NCBI RefSeq assembly: GCF_900323885.1
Contig: NZ_OOHJ01000015.1
Coordinates: 744,001 to 808,000 of the forward strand
DNA from: [Actinomadura] parvosata subsp. kistnae
GTDB taxonomy: Bacteria; Actinomycetota; Actinomycetes; Streptosporangiales; Streptosporangiaceae
DNA length: 64,000 nt
Direction of reading: 5' to 3'
Of the stretch, positions 37,474-47,404 are shown piece by piece (position 1 is the stretch's first letter; every line of letters starts with the position of its first letter). The position numbers and the translations under genes are program-made. The notes under the pieces were generated by a model. It was not told where the DNA came from, searched no databases, and was given only the letters and a program-made list of their open reading frames with translations.

Positions 37474-38543
37474 GCGGAGATCTCCTTGTAGGCGGCTTCG
37501 AGCAGCTCTTCCGCGGGGCCTTCGAGGCGGCCGGGTCTGGCGAGGTCGTCGAGGACGACGAAGCGCTGCTTGGCGCCGCGGTTCTTCTTGTCGAGGCGCA
37601 TGTGGTCGCGCAGCCGGGGCCAGGCGTCGGCGCGGTAGCTGATGGGCAGGCCGACGCTGGTGAGGATGGCGCGGGTGCGGGCGACGACGTCGGCGCGGCC
37701 GGACAGCCTGGACAGCTCGGCGGCGTAGACCATGCCGATGGCGACGGCCTCGCCGTGGCGGATGGCGTAGTGCTCGTCGCGTTCGATGGCGTGGGCGAGC
37801 GTGTGGCCGTAGTTGAGGATCTCGCGCAGGCCGGCCTCGCGCAGGTCGGCGCCGACGACGTCGGCCTTGACCTGGATCTTGCGTTCGATCAGCTCGCGGG
37901 TGTGGGGGCCGTCGGGGCGGGTGGCGGCCTCCGGGTCTGCCTCGATGAGGCGCAGGATCTCGGGGTCGGCGATGAAGCCACCCTTGATGATCTCGGCCAG
38001 GCCGGCGACGTAGTCGGCCTTCGGCATGCTGCCCAGCGTGGACAGCTCGCACAGGACGCCGGCGGGCGGCAGGAAGGTGCCGACGAGGTTCTTGCCTTCG
38101 GGCGTGTCGATGCCGTTCTTGCCGCCGACCGCGGCGTCGACCATGGCCAGCAGCGTCGTCGGGACGAGCACGACCTGCACGCCGCGCAGCCACGTCGCCG
38201 CCACGAACCCGGCCAGGTCCGTCGTCGCGCCCCCGCCCACGCCGACAACGGCGTCGGAGCGGGTGACGCCGTGGCGGCCCAGCTCGGACCACAGCCGCGC
38301 GGCCACCTCGACGGTCTTGGCCTGCTCGCCGTCGGGCACGGGCAGCTCGACGACCTCGTAGCCGCTCTCCGCCAGCGCCGCGGCGACCGGGCGGGTCAGC
38401 TCGGGCAGCGTCTCGGGGCCGATCACGGCGACGGTGCGCACGCCGGGCTTGAGCAGCGTGGTCAGCTCGGCCAGCACGCCGGTGCCGACCACCACGTCGT
38501 ACGGGCTGTCGCCGCGCACGTGGATTCTCGTCGGGGAGGTCAC
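37470..38543 (-). CDS. aroB: 3-dehydroquinate synthase
   Basis: Second shikimate step: converts DAHP to 3-dehydroquinate using NAD+ and a divalent metal. It is 357 residues, normal length. Motifs: [17 protein letters not shown] (NAD binding), [20 protein letters not shown], and metal-ligand regions [12 protein letters not shown] and [11 protein letters not shown]. Overlaps aroQ and aroK by 4 bp each, so the whole operon is translationally coupled. Confidence 0.96.
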
Positions 38544-39043
38544 GCGGGCAGCCCCCTGACGATCTCGTCGGCGAGCTCTTCCGGCTCGCGCTTGTCGGTC
38601 ACCACCGTGACCGCGGCCAGCCGCTCGTAGACCGGCCGCCGCTCCTCCATGAGCTTCTTGAGCTGGCTGCGCGGGTTGAGCACCAGCAGCGGCCTGGCCG
38701 CGGCGAGCCCGACCCGCTGCACCGCGTCGGACAGCCCGACCTGGAGGTAGACGACGTGCTGGCCGGCGAGCAGCGCCTGCGTCTCCTCGTGCAGGACGGC
38801 GCCGCCGCCGAGGGACAGGATGCCGTCGTGCTCGGCCAGGGCGCGGCGCACGGCCTCGTGCTCCAGCTCGCGGAAGCGGGCCTCGCCGTCCTCGACGAAG
38901 ATGTCGGCGACGGGCTTGCCCGCCACTGCCTCGACGTCGGCGTCGGTGTCGCGGAACTCGACGCCGAGCCGCTCGGCGAGCAGCCGCCCGAGCGTGGTCT
39001 TGCCGGACCCGGGAGGCCCGATCAGCACAGCCTTGGCCGTCAT
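38540..39043 (-). CDS. aroK: Shikimate kinase
   Basis: Phosphorylates shikimate at the 3-hydroxyl. It is 167 residues, usual for the family. Walker A is [16 protein letters not shown], the shikimate-binding Asp is in FRDTDADVE, the GGG motif is LSLGGGAVL, and the LID Arg is in AAARPLL. ATG 39043 (protein MTAKAVLIG) overlaps the TGA of aroC; an in-frame extension further upstream would lie inside aroC and is not used. Confidence 0.95.
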
Positions 39044-40221
39044 TTGATCACCATGGATGAGAGGTAGCCGGACAGGTTGCGGGCGACTTCCTCCACGGAG
39101 TCGCCGCCGAACTTCTCGATCGCCGCGTCGGCCAGCACCAGCGCGACCATCGCCTCGGCCACGATGCCCGCCGCCGGGACAGCGCACACGTCGGAGCGCT
39201 CGTGGTGGGCCTTGGCGGCCTCGCCGGTCTTGACGTCGATCGTGGCCAGCGCCCTGGGAACGGTGGAGATCGGCTTCATCGCGGCGCTGACCCGCAGGAT
39301 CTCGCCGTTGGTCATGCCGCCTTCGAGGCCGCCCGCGCGGTTGGTGACGCGGCGCACGCCGTCGGCGGTGGTGTACTCGATCTCGTCGTGGGCGCGGGAG
39401 CCGGGCCTGCGCGCGGTCTCGAAGCCGTCGCCGACCGCGACGCCCTTGATCGCCTGGATGCCCATGAGGGCCGCGGCGAGCCTGGAGTCGAGCCGCCGGT
39501 CCCAGTGCGTGTAGCTGCCCAGGCCGGGCGGCAGGTTGTAGGCGAGGACCTCGACGACGCCTCCGAGCGTGTCGCCGTCTTTGTGCGCCTTGTCGATCAC
39601 GGCGACCATCGCGGCGCTGCCCTCGGGGTCGGCGCAGCGGACCGGGTCGGCGTCGATCCTGGCCAGGTCGCCCGGGCCGGGCAGGGTCTCGGCCGGGGTG
39701 CGCGCGCCGCCGATCTCGGTGACGTGGCTGACGATGTCGACGCCGAGCGCCTGCTTCAGGAACCGCCGGGCGACCTCGCCCAGCGCCACCCGCGCCGCCG
39801 TCTCGCGGGCGCTGGCCCGGTCGAGGACGTTACGGGCGTCGTCGAAGCCGTACTTCTGCATGCCCGCGAGGTCGGCGTGCCCGGGACGGGGGCGGGACCT
39901 GGGGGCGTTGCGGGCCAGGCCCTCCAGCTCGGCCGGGTCGACCGGGTCGGCCGCCATGACCTTCTCCCACTTGGGCCACTCCGTGTTGCCGACCCTGATC
40001 GCGACCGGGCTGCCCATCGTGCGCCCGTGCCGGACGCCGCCGGCGATCGTCACCTCGTCCTGCTCGAACTTCATCCGAGCGCCGCGCCCATAACCGAGCC
40101 TGCGGCGGCGCAGTGCCTCGTCGATGGCGGCCGTGGTCACCTCTACCCCGGCCGGCAGGCCTTCGAGGATGGCGACGAGTTCGGGCCCGTGGGACTCTCC
40201 GGCGGTCAACCAGCGCAACAT
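39040..40221 (-). CDS. aroC: Chorismate synthase
   Basis: Final shikimate step: EPSP to chorismate, requiring reduced FMN. It is 393 residues, typical. Motifs: [21 protein letters not shown] at the N-terminus, [24 protein letters not shown] and the C-terminal [18 protein letters not shown]. It is the first gene of the aroC-aroK-aroB-aroQ block, which feeds aromatic amino acid and secondary metabolite synthesis. Confidence 0.96.
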
Positions 40222-40264
40222 GCGTACAAGTCTTCCATGTACGGCCCAGTGAGATGTCCCTCGA

Positions 40265-40890
40265 TCACCATCCGAGACAGAGTGTCGGGAGGGTGCCGAG
40301 CAGCATGAAGGTGCCGAAGGGGAACTCGGTGTGCCGGGTGGCCCGCCCGGTGGCCAGCAGGCAGAGCGCGTAGAGGGCGCCGAGCAGTTGCCCGCAGAAG
40401 GCCGCCACGACCAGGGCCTGCCAGCTCAGCGCGGCGGTCGCCATGCCGATCAGCCCGGCGATCTTGACGTCGCCGAGCCCCATCGCCTCCGGTCTGGCGA
40501 GCCACAGCAGCGCGTACACCGCCGTCAGCGCCGCCCCGCCGGCCAGCGCCCTGGGCAGCTCCCCTGTGGGGAGCAGCGCCACCGCCATGATCGGGTACGC
40601 CGGTAGCGTGATCGCGTCGGGCAGCGTGCTGGTCCGCCAGTCGATGACGGCCAGCGCCACGGCGATCACGGCGAAGCACACGTACGGCGGCCCGGCCCGC
40701 CACCCGCCAGCGCGGCCACGGCGGCGCTGACCAGCTCCAGCGCCGGCCAGGGGCGGGCGAGAGCGGGCTCGCCGGAGTAGGAGGCGGCCAGTGCCCTGAT
40801 GCGGTCTCCGCAGACGAGGCCGGCCAGCGCCATGAGTGCCACCACCCGGCCGACGCTAACCGCGCCCGCGGGCCGCCCGCGCCCGGCCAT
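40265..40890 (-). CDS. A24 prepilin peptidase-like protein (single-base frameshift)
   Basis: Membrane aspartic peptidase of the type IV prepilin peptidase family, broken by a frameshift. The C-terminal part (about 40700-40265) has both catalytic Asp motifs: [11 protein letters not shown] and [13 protein letters not shown]. The N-terminal part is in another frame from ATG 40890: [20 protein letters not shown] and [18 protein letters not shown], then the first frame resumes with [10 protein letters not shown]. The break is at the C3 run 40703-40705. One more G in the coding strand gives a continuous 208-residue protein. It lies in the same orientation as aroC, 43 bp upstream. Confidence 0.65.
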
Positions 40891-40910
40891 GCACAGCGGG
40901 TATGGGACGG

Positions 40911-41447
40911 TCAGCGCTTCCTGGAGAACCAGCGGCGCTTGCGCGGCGGGGCCTCCTCCACCTTGGCCACGGTCACGCCGGCCAGCTCGCTCACCGTCCC
41001 CGACTCGACCGCGGCCAGCGCCGCCAGCACCTCGCCCTCGATCACGAACTGCACCGGCCCCGCCACGTCCACCACGACCGCCGCCGCCCGCTCCTGCACG
41101 GCCGCCTGGCAGACCTGCAGCGTGGTCGCCTGGATCGGGCGCGCGTCGGGCCGCCACCTGGTCATCGCCTGCGTGCCGGTGAACGCGAGCACCGCCTGCC
41201 TGCCGTCCTGCCCGACGAGCTTGGGCAGGGCCATCTCGCTCTCCTTCTCCTGCCGCAGCCCGTGCTCCCCCACCTCGGACTCGGTCAGCAACGCGACCAC
41301 GGGCACCAGCAGGCGGGCGCCGCCGAGCGCGTTCAGCACCTCGGCGGGGCCGGCCGTGCCCTCCTGGTAGGCGGCCAGGGCGGCGGCGACGGCGGGGGCG
41401 GCGCCGCCGTCGTCGTTCGGATCAAGGGGTCGCGGGATGCTCGGCAC
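40911..41447 (-). CDS. SseB family protein
   Basis: Protein of 178 residues with the SseB N-terminal fold: VLNALGGARLLVPVVAL, then DGRQAVLAFTGTQAMTRW and ATTLQVCQAAVQERAAAVV. A basic tail (PPRKRRWFSRKR) ends the protein. SseB-like proteins are common and uncharacterised in actinomycetes, often thought to be stress-linked. It lies directly upstream of the prepilin peptidase gene on the same strand. Confidence 0.82.
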   Translation of the reverse strand: MPSIPRPLDPNDDGGAAPAVAAALAAYQEGTAGPAEVLNALGGARLLVPVVALLTESEVGEHGLRQEKESEMALPKLVGQDGRQAVLAFTGTQAMTRWRPDARPIQATTLQVCQAAVQERAAAVVVDVAGPVQFVIEGEVLAALAAVESGTVSELAGVTVAKVEEAPPRKRRWFSRKR

Positions 41448-41514
41448 AACGTCCGAGACTACCGGCGCCGGCCACCGCCCCCGATCCCGGCCACGTTCCT
41501 GGTCATGTTCCTGG

Positions 41515-42483
41515 TCACTCGCGTTCGTCCCCGTCCCCGAGCCTGGCCCGGATCGTGTGGATCGCCGCCGTCAGCACGGGCGGCACGGTGATGGCGATCA
41601 CGACGGCGTCGGCGAGCCGGTCGGCCGCCGCGTCCAGTACGAGCCAGCCGAGCAGCGGCGCGAGCAGGGCCCACGCCCGCAGATCCGACCGCACGACCCA
41701 CCGCAGAAGGCGCACCGCCGGGGGTGCGCCGCGCGGAAGGGCTTCGTGCCGGCGGAGCGTCAGCGCCATCCGCGGCATGCCGGCCAGCAGCCGGAACGCG
41801 AACCGTGACCGGGCTCTGCCGCCGGGCAGCGCGAGCAGCTCGCCCAGCCATTCCTCCACCCACCTGGCCCGCGCCACCGGCGGCAGCAGGATCGCGCCCG
41901 CGGCGACGACCCCGAAGGAGACGTGCGCGCCGCCGAGCCCGGACAGGTTCGCCAGAGCCAGCCGCCGCAGCTCCTCCTCGACCTGCCGCAGCCCCAGGCG
42001 GGCCGCTACGGGAGCGACGACCTCCAGGTTCTCCCGCGAGTTCACCCGCTGCCTGGCCTCGGGCAGGCCCCGGATCGTGCGCTGGTTGTGCAGCCGGTCC
42101 GCGAGCTTGAGCGTGAGCACGCGCTCGTCCATCGAGGTCGCCCAGTCGGGCGGCCGGCACCTGTCGTCATCGAGCCGCTCCAGGCCGCGCAGCAGGCCGA
42201 TGATCACCGAGCCGAACTCGGCGGCCAGTTCCTCAGGCGGGCAGGCGGTGTCCGGCAGCACGTCGTGGAGCAGCGCCGCGCAGAGCAGCTCGTGGTCCAT
42301 GCGCAGCTCGGCCAGGATCACCGCGACGGCGACCGGATGGGTGATGTAGGGGCTCCCGTCGCGGCGGAACTGCCCGTCGTGCCAGCGGGCGGCCACCTCG
42401 TACGCCCGCCGCACCAGCCGCACCTGCTCGTCGGCCGGCGCACCCTCGAGGACCCGCAACAGAGGCTGGAGATGATCGCTCAC
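41515..42483 (-). CDS. RSH-like HD-domain protein (no synthetase domain)
   Basis: About 322 residues. Residues 20-165 match the (p)ppGpp hydrolase domain of Rel/SpoT proteins: DGSPYITHPVAVAVILAEL (metal His 49), LLHDVLPDT (His 73, Asp 74), LTLKLADRLHNQRTI (Asp 129) and VAPVAARLGLRQVEEEL. The catalytic HDxxED motif reads HDVLPD, with Pro 77 in place of the conserved Glu, so hydrolysis may be impaired. No synthetase domain follows. The C-terminal part has hydrophobic stretches (WALLAPLLGWLVL and DAVVIAITVPPVLTAAI) that may anchor it in the membrane. GTG 42483 overlaps the PadR stop. Confidence 0.8.
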   Translation of the reverse strand: MSDHLQPLLRVLEGAPADEQVRLVRRAYEVAARWHDGQFRRDGSPYITHPVAVAVILAELRMDHELLCAALLHDVLPDTACPPEELAAEFGSVIIGLLRGLERLDDDRCRPPDWATSMDERVLTLKLADRLHNQRTIRGLPEARQRVNSRENLEVVAPVAARLGLRQVEEELRRLALANLSGLGGAHVSFGVVAAGAILLPPVARARWVEEWLGELLALPGGRARSRFAFRLLAGMPRMALTLRRHEALPRGAPPAVRLLRWVVRSDLRAWALLAPLLGWLVLDAAADRLADAVVIAITVPPVLTAAIHTIRARLGDGDERE

Positions 42484-42809
42484 GACAACCCCACCACCCA
42501 TCCCGGCACCCGCTGCCGCCGCGACCGGTAAGCCTTGGCGATCGCCTCGCGCGCCTGCTCGGCCCCGTCCGTGGTGATCCGGTAGTAGCGGCGCCGCGGG
42601 CGCCCCTCCGTGACGTGCGTCTCCGGCTCCTCCCACCGGCTCTCCACCCACCCGGCCTGCTCCAGCCGCGCCAGGATCGGGTAGAGCGTGCCGCTGGGCA
42701 GCCCGGCGAGCTCGCACAGCTCCAGCCCGTAGCGCTCGCGCTCGGGGGCGGTGAGCAGGGCGCGGAGCACCGCCTGCGTGGGCATCGTCATCCTCAGGCG
42801 GTCCTGCAT
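42480..42809 (-). CDS. PadR family transcriptional regulator
   Basis: Winged-helix regulator of 109 residues. The DNA-binding domain reads TQAVLRALLTAPERERYGLE, GLPSGTLYPILARLEQAGWV and RPRRRYYRITTDG (wing). The start at ATG 42809 is only 10 bp from a palindrome, so autorepression is likely. It is translationally coupled (GTGA) to the RSH-like gene and probably controls it. The C-terminal dimerisation helix is short. Confidence 0.9.
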   Translation of the reverse strand: MQDRLRMTMPTQAVLRALLTAPERERYGLELCELAGLPSGTLYPILARLEQAGWVESRWEEPETHVTEGRPRRRYYRITTDGAEQAREAIAKAYRSRRQRVPGWVVGLS

Positions 42810-42818
42810 GTGTCGAAC

Positions 42819-42832
42819 TCTACATAGGTAGA
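42819..42832. promoter_or_regulatory. Operator-like palindrome upstream of padR
   Basis: TCTAC-ATAG-GTAGA is a perfect 5-bp inverted repeat with a 4-base spacer, 10 bp before the padR start. It is in the expected place for PadR autoregulation. Confidence 0.55.
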
Positions 42833-42881
42833 TGGACGCGCACCGTCACCCAAGGGTGCGAGCCGTGTGGCTCGCGCTCCC

Positions 42882-43973
42882 TCACCCCAGGTCGGCAATG
42901 GCGGCCACCGGCCCGCCGCCGGACGGCCCCTGGTGCACGGCCGCGACCGACACGAACACCGCCGGATCCCCCGTGACCGACGCGGCCACTCCGCCCACGG
43001 CCGCCTTGATCTGCCGGTGCCAGTGCACGTCGGAGTCGTCCAGCATGATGTTGCGCCGGCCGCGCACCCGCCCGGACGGGTCGGCCTCGCACTTCATGAA
43101 GACGTTCACGAGCCGCCCGCCGAGGTCCGACGGGTGGGGGCGGTCGGGCAGCGGGAGGCCGGCGTCGCGGATGGCCTCCCAGATGCCGTCGGCGTCGAGG
43201 GCGTCCTTCATGACGCTGTGGCCGATGCGGTAGCGCCCGCCGATGCCCCGGACGTTCCCCACGAGCACGATCTGCGCGCGGTCCAGCTCGACCCCGGACG
43301 AGCAGGAGGCGACGGACGAGTACAGCGACAGGTCCTTGTGGATCTGCTCGGCGGCCGGCATCTCGATCTCGCCGAGGGCGACCGCGATGCCGAGGGCGGT
43401 GGTGGAGTTGGACAGGTCCATGGAGGGGCCGGTCTCCTCGATGGCGGTGTCCTGGCCGCGGCTCTTGGCGTCGGTGATGGTGGCCAGGGTGAGCAGCGGC
43501 GTCTTGGTCTGGACGTAGTGCACGTCGCGCGGGTCGTCGATGCCGGCGATCTTCATGGCCTCACGGACGCCGGCGGCGACCTTCTCGACCATGGCGGGCC
43601 GGCCGATGTCCTCGGGGAGGATGACCTCGCTCATGGCGACGCCGACGGACAGGCGGGGCTCCTCGGAGGCGGGCGCGTCGGCCGTGGTGGCGAAGATGGT
43701 GGCGTGCGGGCTGAGGATGCCGTCGGTGCCGCCGGACCAGACGAGCGGCACGCTGTCGGGCGAGGGGTGCCCGTGCTCGGCCAGGACCTCGCGGAAGGCG
43801 CGGTCGGCGAGGATGCGGGTGTAGTCGTTGACGCCGCCGTTGCCCTCGGTCTTGCCGATGACGGCCAGCACCCGCTCCGCCTCGATGACGCCGTCGGCGA
43901 TGAGCCTGGACAGGCCGGAGGCGTCGGTGACGCTCTCGATCGGCACCTTGCGCACTTCGATCGGGTCCGGCAT
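42882..43973 (-). CDS. Ring-opening amidohydrolase (cyanuric acid hydrolase/barbiturase family)
   Basis: Enzyme of about 363 residues of the AtzD/Bar family, which opens cyanuric acid or barbiturate-type rings with a Ser-Lys dyad. It shows three internally similar units: [36 protein letters not shown] and the C-terminal [17 protein letters not shown]. Lys residues in each unit and [20 protein letters not shown] fit the family. ATG 43973 is preferred (AAAGGG upstream). An isolated gene: no other triazine or pyrimidine catabolism genes are near. The substrate is unverified. Confidence 0.88.
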
Positions 43974-44083
43974 GCCTTGCCCTTTCTGCTGGTGGCGGGT
44001 CCCCACGCTACCGAGCGGGTCTGCGGGGTTCATGGTCAATGTGTGCCCATGAAGCCCGGCGGTGATGTCAAGGTGCGCTCAGC

Positions 44084-44134
44084 GCTCTCATAGGGTCGGG
44101 GCTCTCATAAGGTCGGGGCTCTCATAGGGTCGGG
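44084..44134 (+). repeat. 17-bp tandem repeat, three copies, each with a -10 hexamer
   Basis: GCTCTCATAGGGTCGGG occurs at 44084-44100, 44101-44117 (one change, TAAGGT) and 44118-44134. Each unit carries a TANNNT hexamer at 44091, 44108 and 44125. The last hexamer ends 6 bases before GTG 44137, so it is placed to drive a leaderless transcript of the hydrolase gene. Confidence 0.85.
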
Positions 44135-44136
44135 CT

Positions 44137-44841
44137 GTGATTCGCGAAGCACACGTCAACGGGATCAGGCTCGTGTACCGGGAGGAAGGCGACCCCGCCG
44201 CTCCTGCGCTGGTGCTGCTCCACGGGCGCACCGCCGACCACAACGACTGGAACGGCATCACGCAGCACTTCGCGGCCCGCCATCACGTGCTCGCGCCGGA
44301 CCTGCGGGGCCACGGGGCCAGCGACCGTCCGGGCTCGTACCCGCTGCCGGAGATGGCGGCGGACGTCGTGGCGCTGCTCGGCCACCTGAGCGTGGAACGG
44401 GTCCGGCTGGTCGGGCACTCGCTCGGCGCCGTGGTCGCCGCCCACGTGGCGATGGGCCGTCCGGACCTGATCGAGCGGCTCGTCCTGGAGGACCCGCCGC
44501 CCGCGTACCCGATCAAGGGGCGCCCGCCGATCGTGGAGGACGGGCCGGCCGCCTTCGACTGGCGGATGATGCACGACACCGAGCGGCAGCTCATCGACCC
44601 CGATCCCGCCTACGTCGAGGGGCTCGCGCGGATCACGGCGCCGACGCTGGTGCTGTCGGGGACGCGCAGCCCGTTCGAGCCGGACCTGGCGGAGCGCGTC
44701 CCGGGCGCGGAGCTGGTGCGGGTCGAGGCGGGGCACCTGGTGCACATGGACGCCCGCAAGGAGTTCCTGCGCGTGGTGGACGCGTTCCTCGAACAGGGCG
44801 CCCCGCACCTGACGAAAAGGACTTCGCCGGGGCAAACGTGA
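44137..44841 (+). CDS. Alpha/beta hydrolase
   Basis: Hydrolase of 234 residues. Oxyanion motif LVLLHGRTADHNDW, strand-4 motif DLRGHGASDRPG, nucleophile elbow VGHSLGAVVAAH (Ser), and catalytic His in VEAGHLVHMDARKEFL. The cap is very short, so the protein is smaller than most of its class. GTG 44137 has no Shine-Dalgarno but stands 6 bases after a -10 hexamer. The substrate is unknown. Confidence 0.9.
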   Translation: MIREAHVNGIRLVYREEGDPAAPALVLLHGRTADHNDWNGITQHFAARHHVLAPDLRGHGASDRPGSYPLPEMAADVVALLGHLSVERVRLVGHSLGAVVAAHVAMGRPDLIERLVLEDPPPAYPIKGRPPIVEDGPAAFDWRMMHDTERQLIDPDPAYVEGLARITAPTLVLSGTRSPFEPDLAERVPGAELVRVEAGHLVHMDARKEFLRVVDAFLEQGAPHLTKRTSPGQT

Positions 44842-44875
44842 CCTTAACGTCATAAAGATCCGCAAAGGTGGAGGG

Positions 44876-45976
44876 GTGCTTACCAGGCTCAGCGATCTTG
44901 TGAAGGAACGGCTGGGCACGTTCGGCCTGACGGCCCCGTCGATCGCGCAGTGCGCGGTGGGCTCCGCCCTGGCCTGGACCGCCGCCATCGAGCTGCTCGG
45001 CCACCCCCGCCCGTTCTTCGCCCCCATCTCCGTGCTGATCTGCGTCGGCGTCGGTCTGGGGCAGCGGCTGCGGCGGGTCGTCGAGCTGGTCGTCGGGGTC
45101 AGCCTCGGCGTCGGCGTCGGCGACCTGCTGGTGTCGTGGATCGGCTCGGGCGCCTGGCAGCTCGCCCTGGTGGTCGGGCTGGCCATGACGGTGGCCGTGC
45201 TGCTCAACAGCGGAGCCCTGTTCGTGGCGCAGGCGGGCTCGTCGGCCGTGCTGGTGGCGACCCTGGTGCCGGGCGACGGGGCCGGCGGCCTCGACCGCAT
45301 GGCCGACGCGCTCACCGGCGGCGTCATCGGGATCGCGGCGGTGGCGCTGCTGCCCGCCAGCCCGTTCACGATCGCGGCCAAGCACCTGTCGGGGGTGCTC
45401 GACGCGCTGTCCACCGTGCTGGAGCGGGCGGCCGAGGCCATCGAGAAGCGCGACGCGGACCTGGCCGCCGAAGCGCTGGAGGAGGCGCGTACGACGCAGG
45501 CGGCGGTGGAGGAGTTCGAGGCGGCGCTGGAGACCAGCAAGGAGATCACGATGATCTCGCCGCTGCACTGGCACCGGCGCGCCCGCCTGGCCCGCTACGA
45601 GACCGCCGCCGTGCCGGTGGACCTGGCGCTGCGCAACGCCAGGGTGCTGTGCAGGCGCACCCTGGCCTCGCTGGGCGAGTCGAGCCCGCCGCCGGCCGCG
45701 CTGGCGGAGGCGATGCGCGAGGTGTCGGAGGCGGCGCTGCTGCTGCAGCTGGAGCTCGGCGCCGGCCGGGAGCCGGCCCTGGCCCGTCAGGCGCTGCTGG
45801 CGGTGGCCGCCAGGGAACGGCCGGACGGGCTGGGCTTCTCGGCCCACGTGATCATCGCGCAGCTCCGTTCCGTGGTGGTGGACCTGCTGCAGGCGACGGG
45901 GATGGAGCACGAGGAGGCCACGGCGGCGCTGACGCCACTGGACGAGGCGGGCGTGAGCGAGCGGCCCGCGCGCTGA
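44876..45976 (+). CDS. FUSC/aromatic acid exporter family protein
   Basis: Membrane protein of 366 residues. The N-terminal half has about six helices (residues 20-165), including HPRPFFAPISVLICVGVGLGQ and RVVELVVGVSLGVGVGDLL, typical of FUSC/ArAE exporters. The C-terminal half is a cytoplasmic helical domain with a coiled-coil-like stretch (LERAAEAIEKRDADLAAEAL). Likely effluxes an organic anion, but the substrate is unknown. It lies 35 bp after the hydrolase gene and may be co-transcribed. Confidence 0.87.
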   Translation: MLTRLSDLVKERLGTFGLTAPSIAQCAVGSALAWTAAIELLGHPRPFFAPISVLICVGVGLGQRLRRVVELVVGVSLGVGVGDLLVSWIGSGAWQLALVVGLAMTVAVLLNSGALFVAQAGSSAVLVATLVPGDGAGGLDRMADALTGGVIGIAAVALLPASPFTIAAKHLSGVLDALSTVLERAAEAIEKRDADLAAEALEEARTTQAAVEEFEAALETSKEITMISPLHWHRRARLARYETAAVPVDLALRNARVLCRRTLASLGESSPPPAALAEAMREVSEAALLLQLELGAGREPALARQALLAVAARERPDGLGFSAHVIIAQLRSVVVDLLQATGMEHEEATAALTPLDEAGVSERPAR

Positions 45977-45996
45977 ACCCGGGCCTCAGCCTGGGT
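45977..45996 (+). terminator. Terminator after the FUSC gene
   Basis: ACCCGGGC (45977-45984), a CTCA loop, then GCCTGGGT (45989-45996) form an 8-bp stem with one G-T pair, directly after the stop codon. A CTCCTAGGAG palindrome and TTT follow at 46003-46015. Confidence 0.6.
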
Positions 45997-46088
45997 GCGT
46001 TCCTCCTAGGAGTTTCTCACCTCTCCCTCGGCCGCGCCGGCCTGGGCAGACTCGTCCCGACCAGCACCCCGGGACGACGGAGGTTCCC

Positions 46089-46385
46089 ATGATCGGCAGA
46101 ATGCTGCTCACCCTCGGCCTGCTCACCACGACGACCGGCTCGGGCGGCGCCCCGCACCCGTACGTCGGCATGTGGGTCACCGCCGACGGCCGGATCCGGC
46201 AGGAGCTGCTGCCCGACGGCCGGTACGAGGAGGCGCGCGACGGCCGGGAGCGCGCCTACACCGGCCGGTACACCGTCACCGGCTCCCACCTCGACTACTT
46301 CGACGACGCCGGCTTCACCGCCACCGGGGACGTCCGTGACGGCGTGCTCTACCACGAGCACCTGGTGCTCTACCGGGAGCGGTGA
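46089..46385 (+). CDS. Atu4866-domain protein
   Basis: Small protein of 98 residues. A short hydrophobic N-terminus (about 1-20) suggests export. The rest is the compact Atu4866-type domain: YVGMWVTADGRIRQELLPDG, GRYEEARDGRERAYTGRYTV and a C-terminal GVLYHEHLVLYRE. The domain is often encoded next to aldo/keto reductases or oxidoreductases; here it converges on one, with adjoining stop codons. Molecular role unknown. Confidence 0.8.
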   Translation: MIGRMLLTLGLLTTTTGSGGAPHPYVGMWVTADGRIRQELLPDGRYEEARDGRERAYTGRYTVTGSHLDYFDDAGFTATGDVRDGVLYHEHLVLYRER

Positions 46386-47404
46386 TCAGCGGCGCGGGAC
46401 GAGGTGGAAGAAGGAGCCGTCCATGGGGCCGAGGTCGGCGCGGGAGATCTCGTCCAGCCGGGCCCGGGCTGCCTCGGGCAGGTCGAGGTCGAAGGCTTCC
46501 AGGTTCTCGCGCAACTGCTCGACCGTACGGGGGCCGAGCAGCACGGACGTCACCCCGGCGCGGCCCGCGACCCAGGCCAGCGCGACCTTGGACGGTGTGG
46601 TGCCGAGCTCGGCCGCGACCTGGGAGACGGCCTCGGCGATCTCCAGGTTGCGCTCGGTGAGCAGGGACTCGGCCCACCGGTTCGCGCCGGGCATGGAGTG
46701 GCCGAGGAGCCGGCCCATGCGGCTGCCGGCGTCGGGGGCCTGGCCGCGCCGGTAGCGGCCGGCCAGCACGCCGCCCCGAGCGTCCCGTACGCGACGACGC
46801 CGAGGCCGTGCCGCTCGCACGCCGACAGGATCTCGGCCTCGATGACCCGCTGGACCAGGGAGTACTGCGGCTGGAGGCTGACGAGCGGGGTGCCGCCGAC
46901 GCGGGCGGCGGCCCATTGCGCCTCGACGATCTGGGTGGCGGTGAAGTTGGAGCAGCCGAGGTAGCGGACCTTGCCCGCCTTGACGAAGCCGTCGAGCGTG
47001 GCCATGGTCTCCTCGATGGGCGTCGAGGGATCCCACTGGTGGCACTGGTAGAGGTCGATGTAGTCGGTGCCGAGCCGGCGCAGGCTGGCGTCGAGGGCCC
47101 GGGTGAGGTGGCGGCGCGACAGGCCGCGCCCTTCGGTGCCGACGGGCATGGCGCCCTTGGTGGCCAGCACCATCCACTCGCGCCGGCCTTTCAGCGCGCG
47201 GCCGACTATCTCCTCGGTCTCGCCCCGGTGGTACAGGTCGGCGGTGTCGATGAAGTTCCCGCCCGCCTCGGCGAACGCGTCGATGATCCGCCCGGCCTCG
47301 GCCTCGTCGCTGGCGGCCAGGCCGTGCTCGGTGCCGAAGTTCATCGTGCCCAGGCAGGCGCGGGAGACGCGCAGGCCGGAGTGTCCCAGGTTCACGTGGT
47401 CCAT
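46386..47404 (-). CDS. Aldo/keto reductase (single-base frameshift)
   Basis: NADPH-dependent reductase with an intact fold except for one frame break. From ATG 47404: LGHSGLRVSRACLGTMNFG, FIDTADLYHRGETEE (catalytic Asp and Tyr), VLATKG (Lys), LYQCHQWDP (His) and LGCSNFT, up to VVAYGTLG. The sense then continues in another frame with GGVLAGRYRRG, ALAWVAGRAGVTSVLLGPRT and the end at 46386. The break is at the C4 run 46774-46777; one more G in the coding strand gives a 339-residue protein of normal size. It is divergent from a TetR gene with shared operators. Confidence 0.85.

Follow-up and report, generated by a model that had tools for sequence, protein, structure and literature searches.

A padR gene overlapping that of an RSH-type HD protein with an incomplete catalytic motif, and a possible role of the pair in alarmone sensing

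The window, that is, the whole stretch of 64,000 nucleotides that was analysed, contains a pair of genes in which padR is followed by the gene of a protein with three parts, namely an HD domain of the RSH type, a helical module, and a hydrophobic tail. The GTG start codon of the HD protein overlaps the padR stop codon by 4 bp (GTGA). The padR product was recognized as a PadR-type winged-helix protein, its Pfam score exceeding the cut-off. The features of the locus are collected in Table 1. A search of positions 38000–46500 for RNA elements gave no Rfam match at the gathering threshold.

Table 1. Features of the padR–HD gene pair and its surroundings (positions are those of the window)
Feature	Position	Strand	Basis or remark
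padR, PadR-family winged-helix repressor, 109 aa	42480..42809	-	Pfam PF03551, E=6.2e-13, 49.0 bits, cut-off 27
Protein with RSH-HD domain, helical module and hydrophobic tail, 322 aa, GTG start	41515..42483	-	
RSH-type HD domain, residues 18-180	41944..42432	-	HD_4, TIGR00691, AlphaFold2, Foldseek
RRDGSPY / RRDGRPY loop, residues 40-46	42346-42366		window subclade (L005, L006, L007, L009, L010)
Codons of His73-Asp74, metal ligands, kept	42262..42267	-	H73 in 37/37, D74 in 36/37
Codon of Pro77, Glu position of hydrolases	42253..42255	-	
PadR-associated helical module, residues 186-245, LLPxxxRxRWxEEWxxEL...GMPRMAxTLR	41749..41928	-	common to HD-less proteins
Two hydrophobic helices, residues 266-312, probable membrane hairpin	41548..41688	-	hydropathy, alignment, low-confidence model region
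Presumed padR promoter/operator: palindrome TCTACCTATGTAGA (42819-42832) over -10-like TAGAGT (42817-42822)	42817..42832	-	
Perfect inverted repeat GCGAGCC/GGCTCGC, 4-base loop, between barbiturase-like gene and padR	42858-42875		
Amido_AtzD_TrzD (barbiturase / cyanuric acid hydrolase type) gene, directly upstream of padR	42882-44024	-	Pfam

Thirty-seven members of the HD protein family were identified, the window protein included: 27 in the genus of the host, L042, and nine others. The genus is taken to be Nonomuraea, since a protein of one of its genomes recurs, identical from residue 6 on, in the Nonomuraea gerenzanensis record NZ_LT559118.1. Within the genus, 27 of 54 genomes (that of the host among them) code for a relative extending past the HD domain, and the other 26 proteins are 47–75% identical to the window protein. 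When 150 genomes were drawn from the taxonomic family, 11 full-length matches were obtained, nine of them outside the genus; one relative, from Actinomadura meyerae DSM 44715, was among the matches listed. Among 148 genomes drawn from the class, that of the host alone matched at E <= 1e-72. The HD domain and the module lie in one open frame in the relatives also.

PadR was found directly upstream, and on the same strand, in 36 of the 37 HD-type loci (window's included), the exception being L149, where no PadR lies within 1.4 kb upstream. With the start codons that we chose, a 4-bp overlap of padR and the HD gene was seen at 24 of the 27 genus loci, the remaining three having gaps of 109, 238, and 247 bp instead. 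PadR is scarce in the host genome (40 matches in 13.6 Mb), and the chance that a given upstream gene is a PadR is about 0.3%, if one gene per kb is assumed. The coupling to PadR that had been claimed in the original prediction is thus borne out. Genes around the pair were compared within 1.5 kb on either side (within 3 kb at L042, and over less where a contig ends). Of the 27 genus loci, 15 have the barbiturase-like gene next to the pair and 16 have SseB there, as against none of the 10 loci outside the genus for either gene. An operon that includes either of them was rejected, as neither is kept beyond the genus. Since these neighbours vary among loci, padR and the HD gene make up the constant unit.

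The HD domain of the window protein matched Pfam HD_4 (E=5.2e-28). The match to NCBIfam TIGR00691 (E=4.7e-45; 154 bits, below the whole-protein cut-off of 499 bits) covered only profile positions 1–165 of 687; hence, the protein is without the synthetase part, as had been stated before. The best PDB sequence match with phmmer was RelA of entry 8fr8 (E=4.5e-37). AlphaFold2 resolved the domain, with a pLDDT of about 89–95 over most of residues 21–180 and 67–73 at residues 101–120, and the best Foldseek matches of the HD model were to Thermus thermophilus Rel (E=2.2e-10). Both the sequence and the predicted fold place the domain in the RSH superfamily. Identity of the domain was 50–53% to the long Rels of the genus and 38–49% to the further long Rels listed. 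The host also codes for a long Rel (open frame of 763 aa) and has an SAH-like gene (open frame of 222 aa).

To place the family, trees were built with 39 (tree with a single small alarmone hydrolase, SAH), 23, and 17 of 92 long RSHs. When 16 SAHs of the genus (a subset of a longer list) served as outgroup, the family grouped with 17 long RSHs at a support of 100/100, the SAHs lying on a separate branch. The HD domain was, therefore, RSH-like as predicted and did not group with unrelated HD proteins, but a kinship with small alarmone hydrolases, for which a phylogeny had been proposed, was not supported, nor was an SAH origin of the domain. The single-SAH tree was set aside for this question, as its long SAH branch (2.84) fell inside the family. 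When rooted on 23 long RSHs, the family formed one clade (100/99). In the best tree with the SAH outgroup, the long RSHs arose within the family, which was one clade in 30% of the bootstraps; from these trees, the family would be either sister to the long RSHs or their source. It may be noted that 79 of the 92 long RSHs were found by patterns spanning PYITHPVAV and CAALLHDV residues, a choice that biases conservation in these two stretches, not at position 77. Alignment A3 contained the window protein, L042, and 42 of these 79 loci.

The HDxxED catalytic motif is incomplete in the window protein, reading HDVLPD. His49, His73-Asp74, Asp78, and Asp129 are present and Pro77 replaces Glu, exactly as had been read earlier from the window; R40 and N133 are there as well. 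The equivalent of position 77 was Glu in all the 92 long RSHs examined and in all 16 genus SAHs compared. Among the 37 members, it was Asp in 12, Glu in 11, Arg in four, Ala in three, Pro, Thr, and Ser in two each, and Gly in one. Thus, the lost Glu of the original prediction holds for the window protein and for 26 of the 37 members, but 11 keep Glu and Pro occurs in two only. In Acinetobacter baumannii SpoT, substitution of Y51, E82, D83, or N147 is reported to inactivate the HD domain (PMC9974481). Aligned by motifs, these correspond to window residues 46, 77, 78, and 133. Judged by this alignment, 26 of the 37 members have replaced a residue needed for hydrolysis and have preserved the metal site and most of the pocket; the count falls to 14 of 37 when Asp is taken as a conservative replacement.

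Most other residues of the site were far more constant. H35, R40, H49, H73, R130, H132, and N133 were invariant in all the members; D74, D129, and T136 were each found in 36 of 37, K126 in 35, Y46 in 35 (with Phe in the other two), K or R at 144 in 35, and Asp78 in 31. On a tree of the 37 members and 23 long RSHs, built without column 77, position 77 had undergone at least seven changes between Glu and non-Glu, and at least 16 changes of residue, as against none at the same site within the 23 long RSHs. Among the 43 columns unchanged in these long RSHs, column 77 ranked fourth by number of changes within the family. The columns exceeding it (103, 116, and 115) all belong to the α6–α7 segment (residues 97–121), which is shorter in every member (17–28 residues, compared with 34–37 in the 92 long RSHs) and in which the conserved motifs of the long RSHs are lost or variable. 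Residue 147 of the window protein, aligned with R161 of SpoT, is Val. Because of this residue and the shortened segment, nucleotide binding may be altered too. The loop at residues 40–46 reads mostly RKSGDPY in the long RSHs, and S-G-D or S-G-E predominates there both in the family and in the long RSHs, compared with the RRDGSPY or RRDGRPY of the window subclade. Since the equivalent loop of SpoT is reported to help coordinate guanine (PMC9974481), this subclade may have a changed base preference. The dN/dS of the HD part was 0.22–0.69 in 11 overlapping pairs, suggesting that selection has been kept but partly relaxed.

The main point that goes beyond the original prediction concerns the C-terminal part. 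By its sequence, this part is a PadR-associated module that is found also in proteins lacking the HD domain. Its residues L200, P201, R205, W212, L216, R225, P237, and L243 were invariant in alignment A2 (20 of the 27 genus members). AlphaFold2 gave the module a pLDDT below 60. The hydrophobic C-terminal segments were confirmed, Kyte-Doolittle means over 19 residues reaching 1.72 (residues 186–204) and 2.04 (residues 290–308); the hydrophobic tail is present in 16 of the 27 genus members and missing in 11. The proteins without the HD domain have quite different N-termini. Six such loci were obtained by searching with the window protein, 19 further ones by a module profile (36 of 53 genus genomes), and seven in the wider draws; short weak matches at G016:C31 and G006:C97 lie outside all counts. 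PadR was upstream in 29 of these 32 loci (6/6, 17/19, and 6/7, respectively), being absent at L123, L128, and L210, the contig of the last ending about 0.3 kb upstream. No Pfam family matched the module above the cut-off when the window protein and the 16 sequences of alignment A1 (out of 33 module sequences) were scanned. A Pfam scan of 14 of the 32 non-HD partners yielded no sensor above the cut-off, so that most of the non-HD partners say nothing about alarmones.

The host genome has two more PadR and module pairs with unrelated N-termini, L122 (G000:C34:28376) and L127 (G000:C26:837696). The palindromes before their padR genes, CTCTAACTAGCCCCTAGTTAGAG and CTCTACCTAGCCCCTAGGTAGAG, respectively, are longer than that of the window. 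L140 is a third, weak pair of the same genome. Together with L138 and L139, it represents a minimal version in which a short ILPGxARRERYLEQWLAD start and hydrophobic segments lie beside PadR; the module matches of these three are weak (E 5.8e-7 to 3.8e-5). At L036:714-1998, a tandem pair of padR-like genes stands ahead of one module protein.

One of the HD-less proteins, at L218:1085-2265 (L221:2259-3430) in another actinomycete family, is made of 284 aa, and its gene overlaps padR by 4 bp. Here, the module is followed by a CC...H...C stretch resembling the zinc-finger region of RSH proteins. The protein matched TIGR00691 at positions 549–606 (E=1.8e-5) and PRK10872 at positions 597–735 (E=6.5e-5), both far under the whole-protein cut-offs. 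Its only two PDB matches at E <= 1 were both to members of the RSH superfamily (E=0.03 and 0.08). With a profile built from 74 Rel C-termini, the full-length protein scored 27.3 bits, and 20,000 shuffles of its residues 91–284 at most 9.9 bits. Pfam showed no zinc-finger match in the protein, its pairwise BLASTP score against the Rel of the same organism was no better than that of shuffles (18.1 bits, against up to 26.6), and no relatives were found on plasmids. From the profile matches, we take the region at this single locus to be an RSH zinc-finger, perhaps with an ACT part also.

Upstream of padR, the palindrome TCTACCTATGTAGA (42832..42819, minus strand) was found over the presumed padR promoter, in keeping with the earlier claim that PadR has a palindrome of its own. 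TAGAGT lies 7 nt ahead of the padR ATG (42807–42809). The same hexamer, with a spacer of 6–7 nt to the start, was present at 32 of 36 HD-type padR genes (expected 0.14) and at 12 of 23 non-HD ones (expected 0.11). TAGAGT so close to the start is what we take to be the pattern of a leaderless actinobacterial promoter. TCTA..TAGA palindromes occurred at 18 of 36 HD-type (expected 0.5) and eight of 23 non-HD loci (expected 0.27). It is likely, on this pattern, that padR has a leaderless promoter that includes a palindrome. Relatives vary in the left half of this palindrome, and half of the HD-type loci have none. The 16-mer of the window occurred once in the genome when up to two mismatches were allowed; hence, the pair probably controls itself, and a regulon beyond the operon was rejected by the same search. 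The GCGAGCC/GGCTCGC repeat, which is stronger than TCTACCTATGTAGA and lies further upstream, is a second candidate for the palindrome originally meant; it is missing from the top repeats of the nearest relatives.

Gene coupling, modularity, the residue pattern, and a promoter-like sequence are, therefore, seen in the sequence. For the function, we give about an even chance to padR and the HD protein forming a self-contained, autoregulated PadR–partner dyad with a (pseudo)hydrolase as alarmone sensor. PadR would repress its own promoter, and the module would hold PadR or let it go, in many cases at the membrane. The HD domain would bind an alarmone such as (p)ppGpp together with Mn, with slow turnover or none, and a rise or fall of the nucleotide would change the grip of the module on PadR. 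The pair would then work like a HAAS-PadR dyad into which a sensor of the stringent response has been plugged. The original suggestion of an inactive HD domain fits in part: the acid is lost while the metal ligands and most pocket residues are kept, but Glu stands at position 77 in 11 members and Asp in 12, and some members may, for this reason, still hydrolyse.

These same residues, along with the metal ligands and Asp78 (31 of 37), would suit a protein that is still a hydrolase, weak on (p)ppGpp or acting on another 3'-phosphorylated nucleotide, in which Asp or water replaces Glu and PadR sets the dose. SAHs elsewhere are reported to vary in substrate (PMC9765508). However, Pro, Arg, Ala, Gly, Thr, or Ser occupies position 77 in 14 of the 37 members, including the window protein, and substitution of E82 inactivates the SpoT HD domain according to PMC9974481. 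Retained hydrolysis also accounts poorly for the α6–α7 motifs being lost or variable and for the HD-less module proteins sharing the same PadR arrangement. We regard it as rather unlikely.

Binding of a nucleotide might also have been given up altogether; the folded HD domain would then act as a scaffold or as a surface to which proteins bind, and the signal would come from the membrane or another protein. The shortened α6–α7 segment, the one changed phosphate contact, and dN/dS values up to 0.69 agree with this, and there is a precedent in Escherichia coli RelA, whose inactive HD domain is described as switching the synthetase (PMC8012599). RelA, by contrast, is without the whole HDxxED motif (PMC8012599), and the metal ligands and most of the pocket hardly vary among the 37 members, making a mere scaffold unlikely. 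That the HD part is a functionless, decaying copy of a Rel HD domain could be read from the lost Glu and the higher dN/dS of some pairs, but it is very improbable, given one frame for HD and module, PadR coupling at 36 of 37 loci over several genera, a near-invariant metal site arguing for purifying selection on the ligands, dN/dS below 1 in all 11 pairs, and a conserved promoter-like sequence.

Returning to the alarmone-sensing dyad, a wider proposal is more tentative, and we hold it at less than even confidence. The module and PadR may form a new class of signalling dyad in Actinomycetes, which would have acquired different pieces of the stringent-response enzyme on at least two occasions (the HD domain among Streptosporangiaceae and their relatives, and the zinc-finger region, with ACT perhaps, in another family), reading the alarmone or the state of Rel and the ribosome directly at a repressor. 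The known effects of (p)ppGpp on transcription are exerted mostly via RNA polymerase, GTP pools, or a few enzymes. If the sensing reading is true, a repressor whose own partner is a degenerate ppGpp hydrolase would make an alarmone switch that is both direct and local, having evolved by the conversion of an enzyme into a sensor. Since Glu, Asp, and other states coexist among the relatives, the order in which catalysis was lost and control gained could be tested. The PadR-associated module would also provide a handle for finding further sensors.

Among known systems, the HAAS-PadR-like wHTH dyads, proposed as an alternative to two-component systems (PMC11237479, mSystems 2024), resemble the pair in that a stand-alone PadR lies beside a protein whose helical signalling module is joined to sensors of several kinds or to membrane segments. 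Such a stand-alone PadR was found at 36 of 37 HD-type and 29 of 32 non-HD loci. Unlike in those dyads, there is no Pfam HAAS (PF22564) match in the window protein or the 16 A1 module sequences, and hhalign of the module against 29 HAAS sequences gave a probability of 4.2% over 12 columns; HAAS membership of the module was rejected on both grounds. The main text of PMC11237479 contains none of the terms 'SpoT', 'ppGpp', 'HD domain', and 'alarmone'. The only PF22564 match of the host genome (G000:C22:1462976-1463421) is directly beside a PadR match, and this genome thus seems to have an ordinary HAAS-PadR dyad in addition to the pair described above. No PadR–RSH pairing was found in the titles, abstract starts, and passages of the literature searched, and neither 'PadR' nor 'transmembrane' occurs in the main text of PMC3153485, a survey of the RSH superfamily.

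With the long RSHs (Rel/SpoT, TIGR00691), the family shares the HD fold, the metal ligands, and the RLHN motif, but it has no synthetase or further RSH domains, has lost Glu77 in 26 of 37 members, and has the α6–α7 segment shortened. Like the SAHs (Mesh1, RelH, SAH), the members have HD as their only RSH domain, and Mesh1 and SAH structures were also among the Foldseek matches. Unlike them, the family lies on a separate branch (100/100), and the 16 genus SAHs keep Glu. Finally, the pseudo-hydrolase of E. coli RelA, in which the inactive HD domain is reported to act as a switch for the synthetase in the absence of the whole HDxxED motif (PMC8012599), is similarly an RSH HD domain that lacks complete catalytic residues and is kept for a regulatory role. 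Unlike RelA, the present family keeps the metal ligands, has no synthetase to regulate, and is coupled to a PadR repressor instead.
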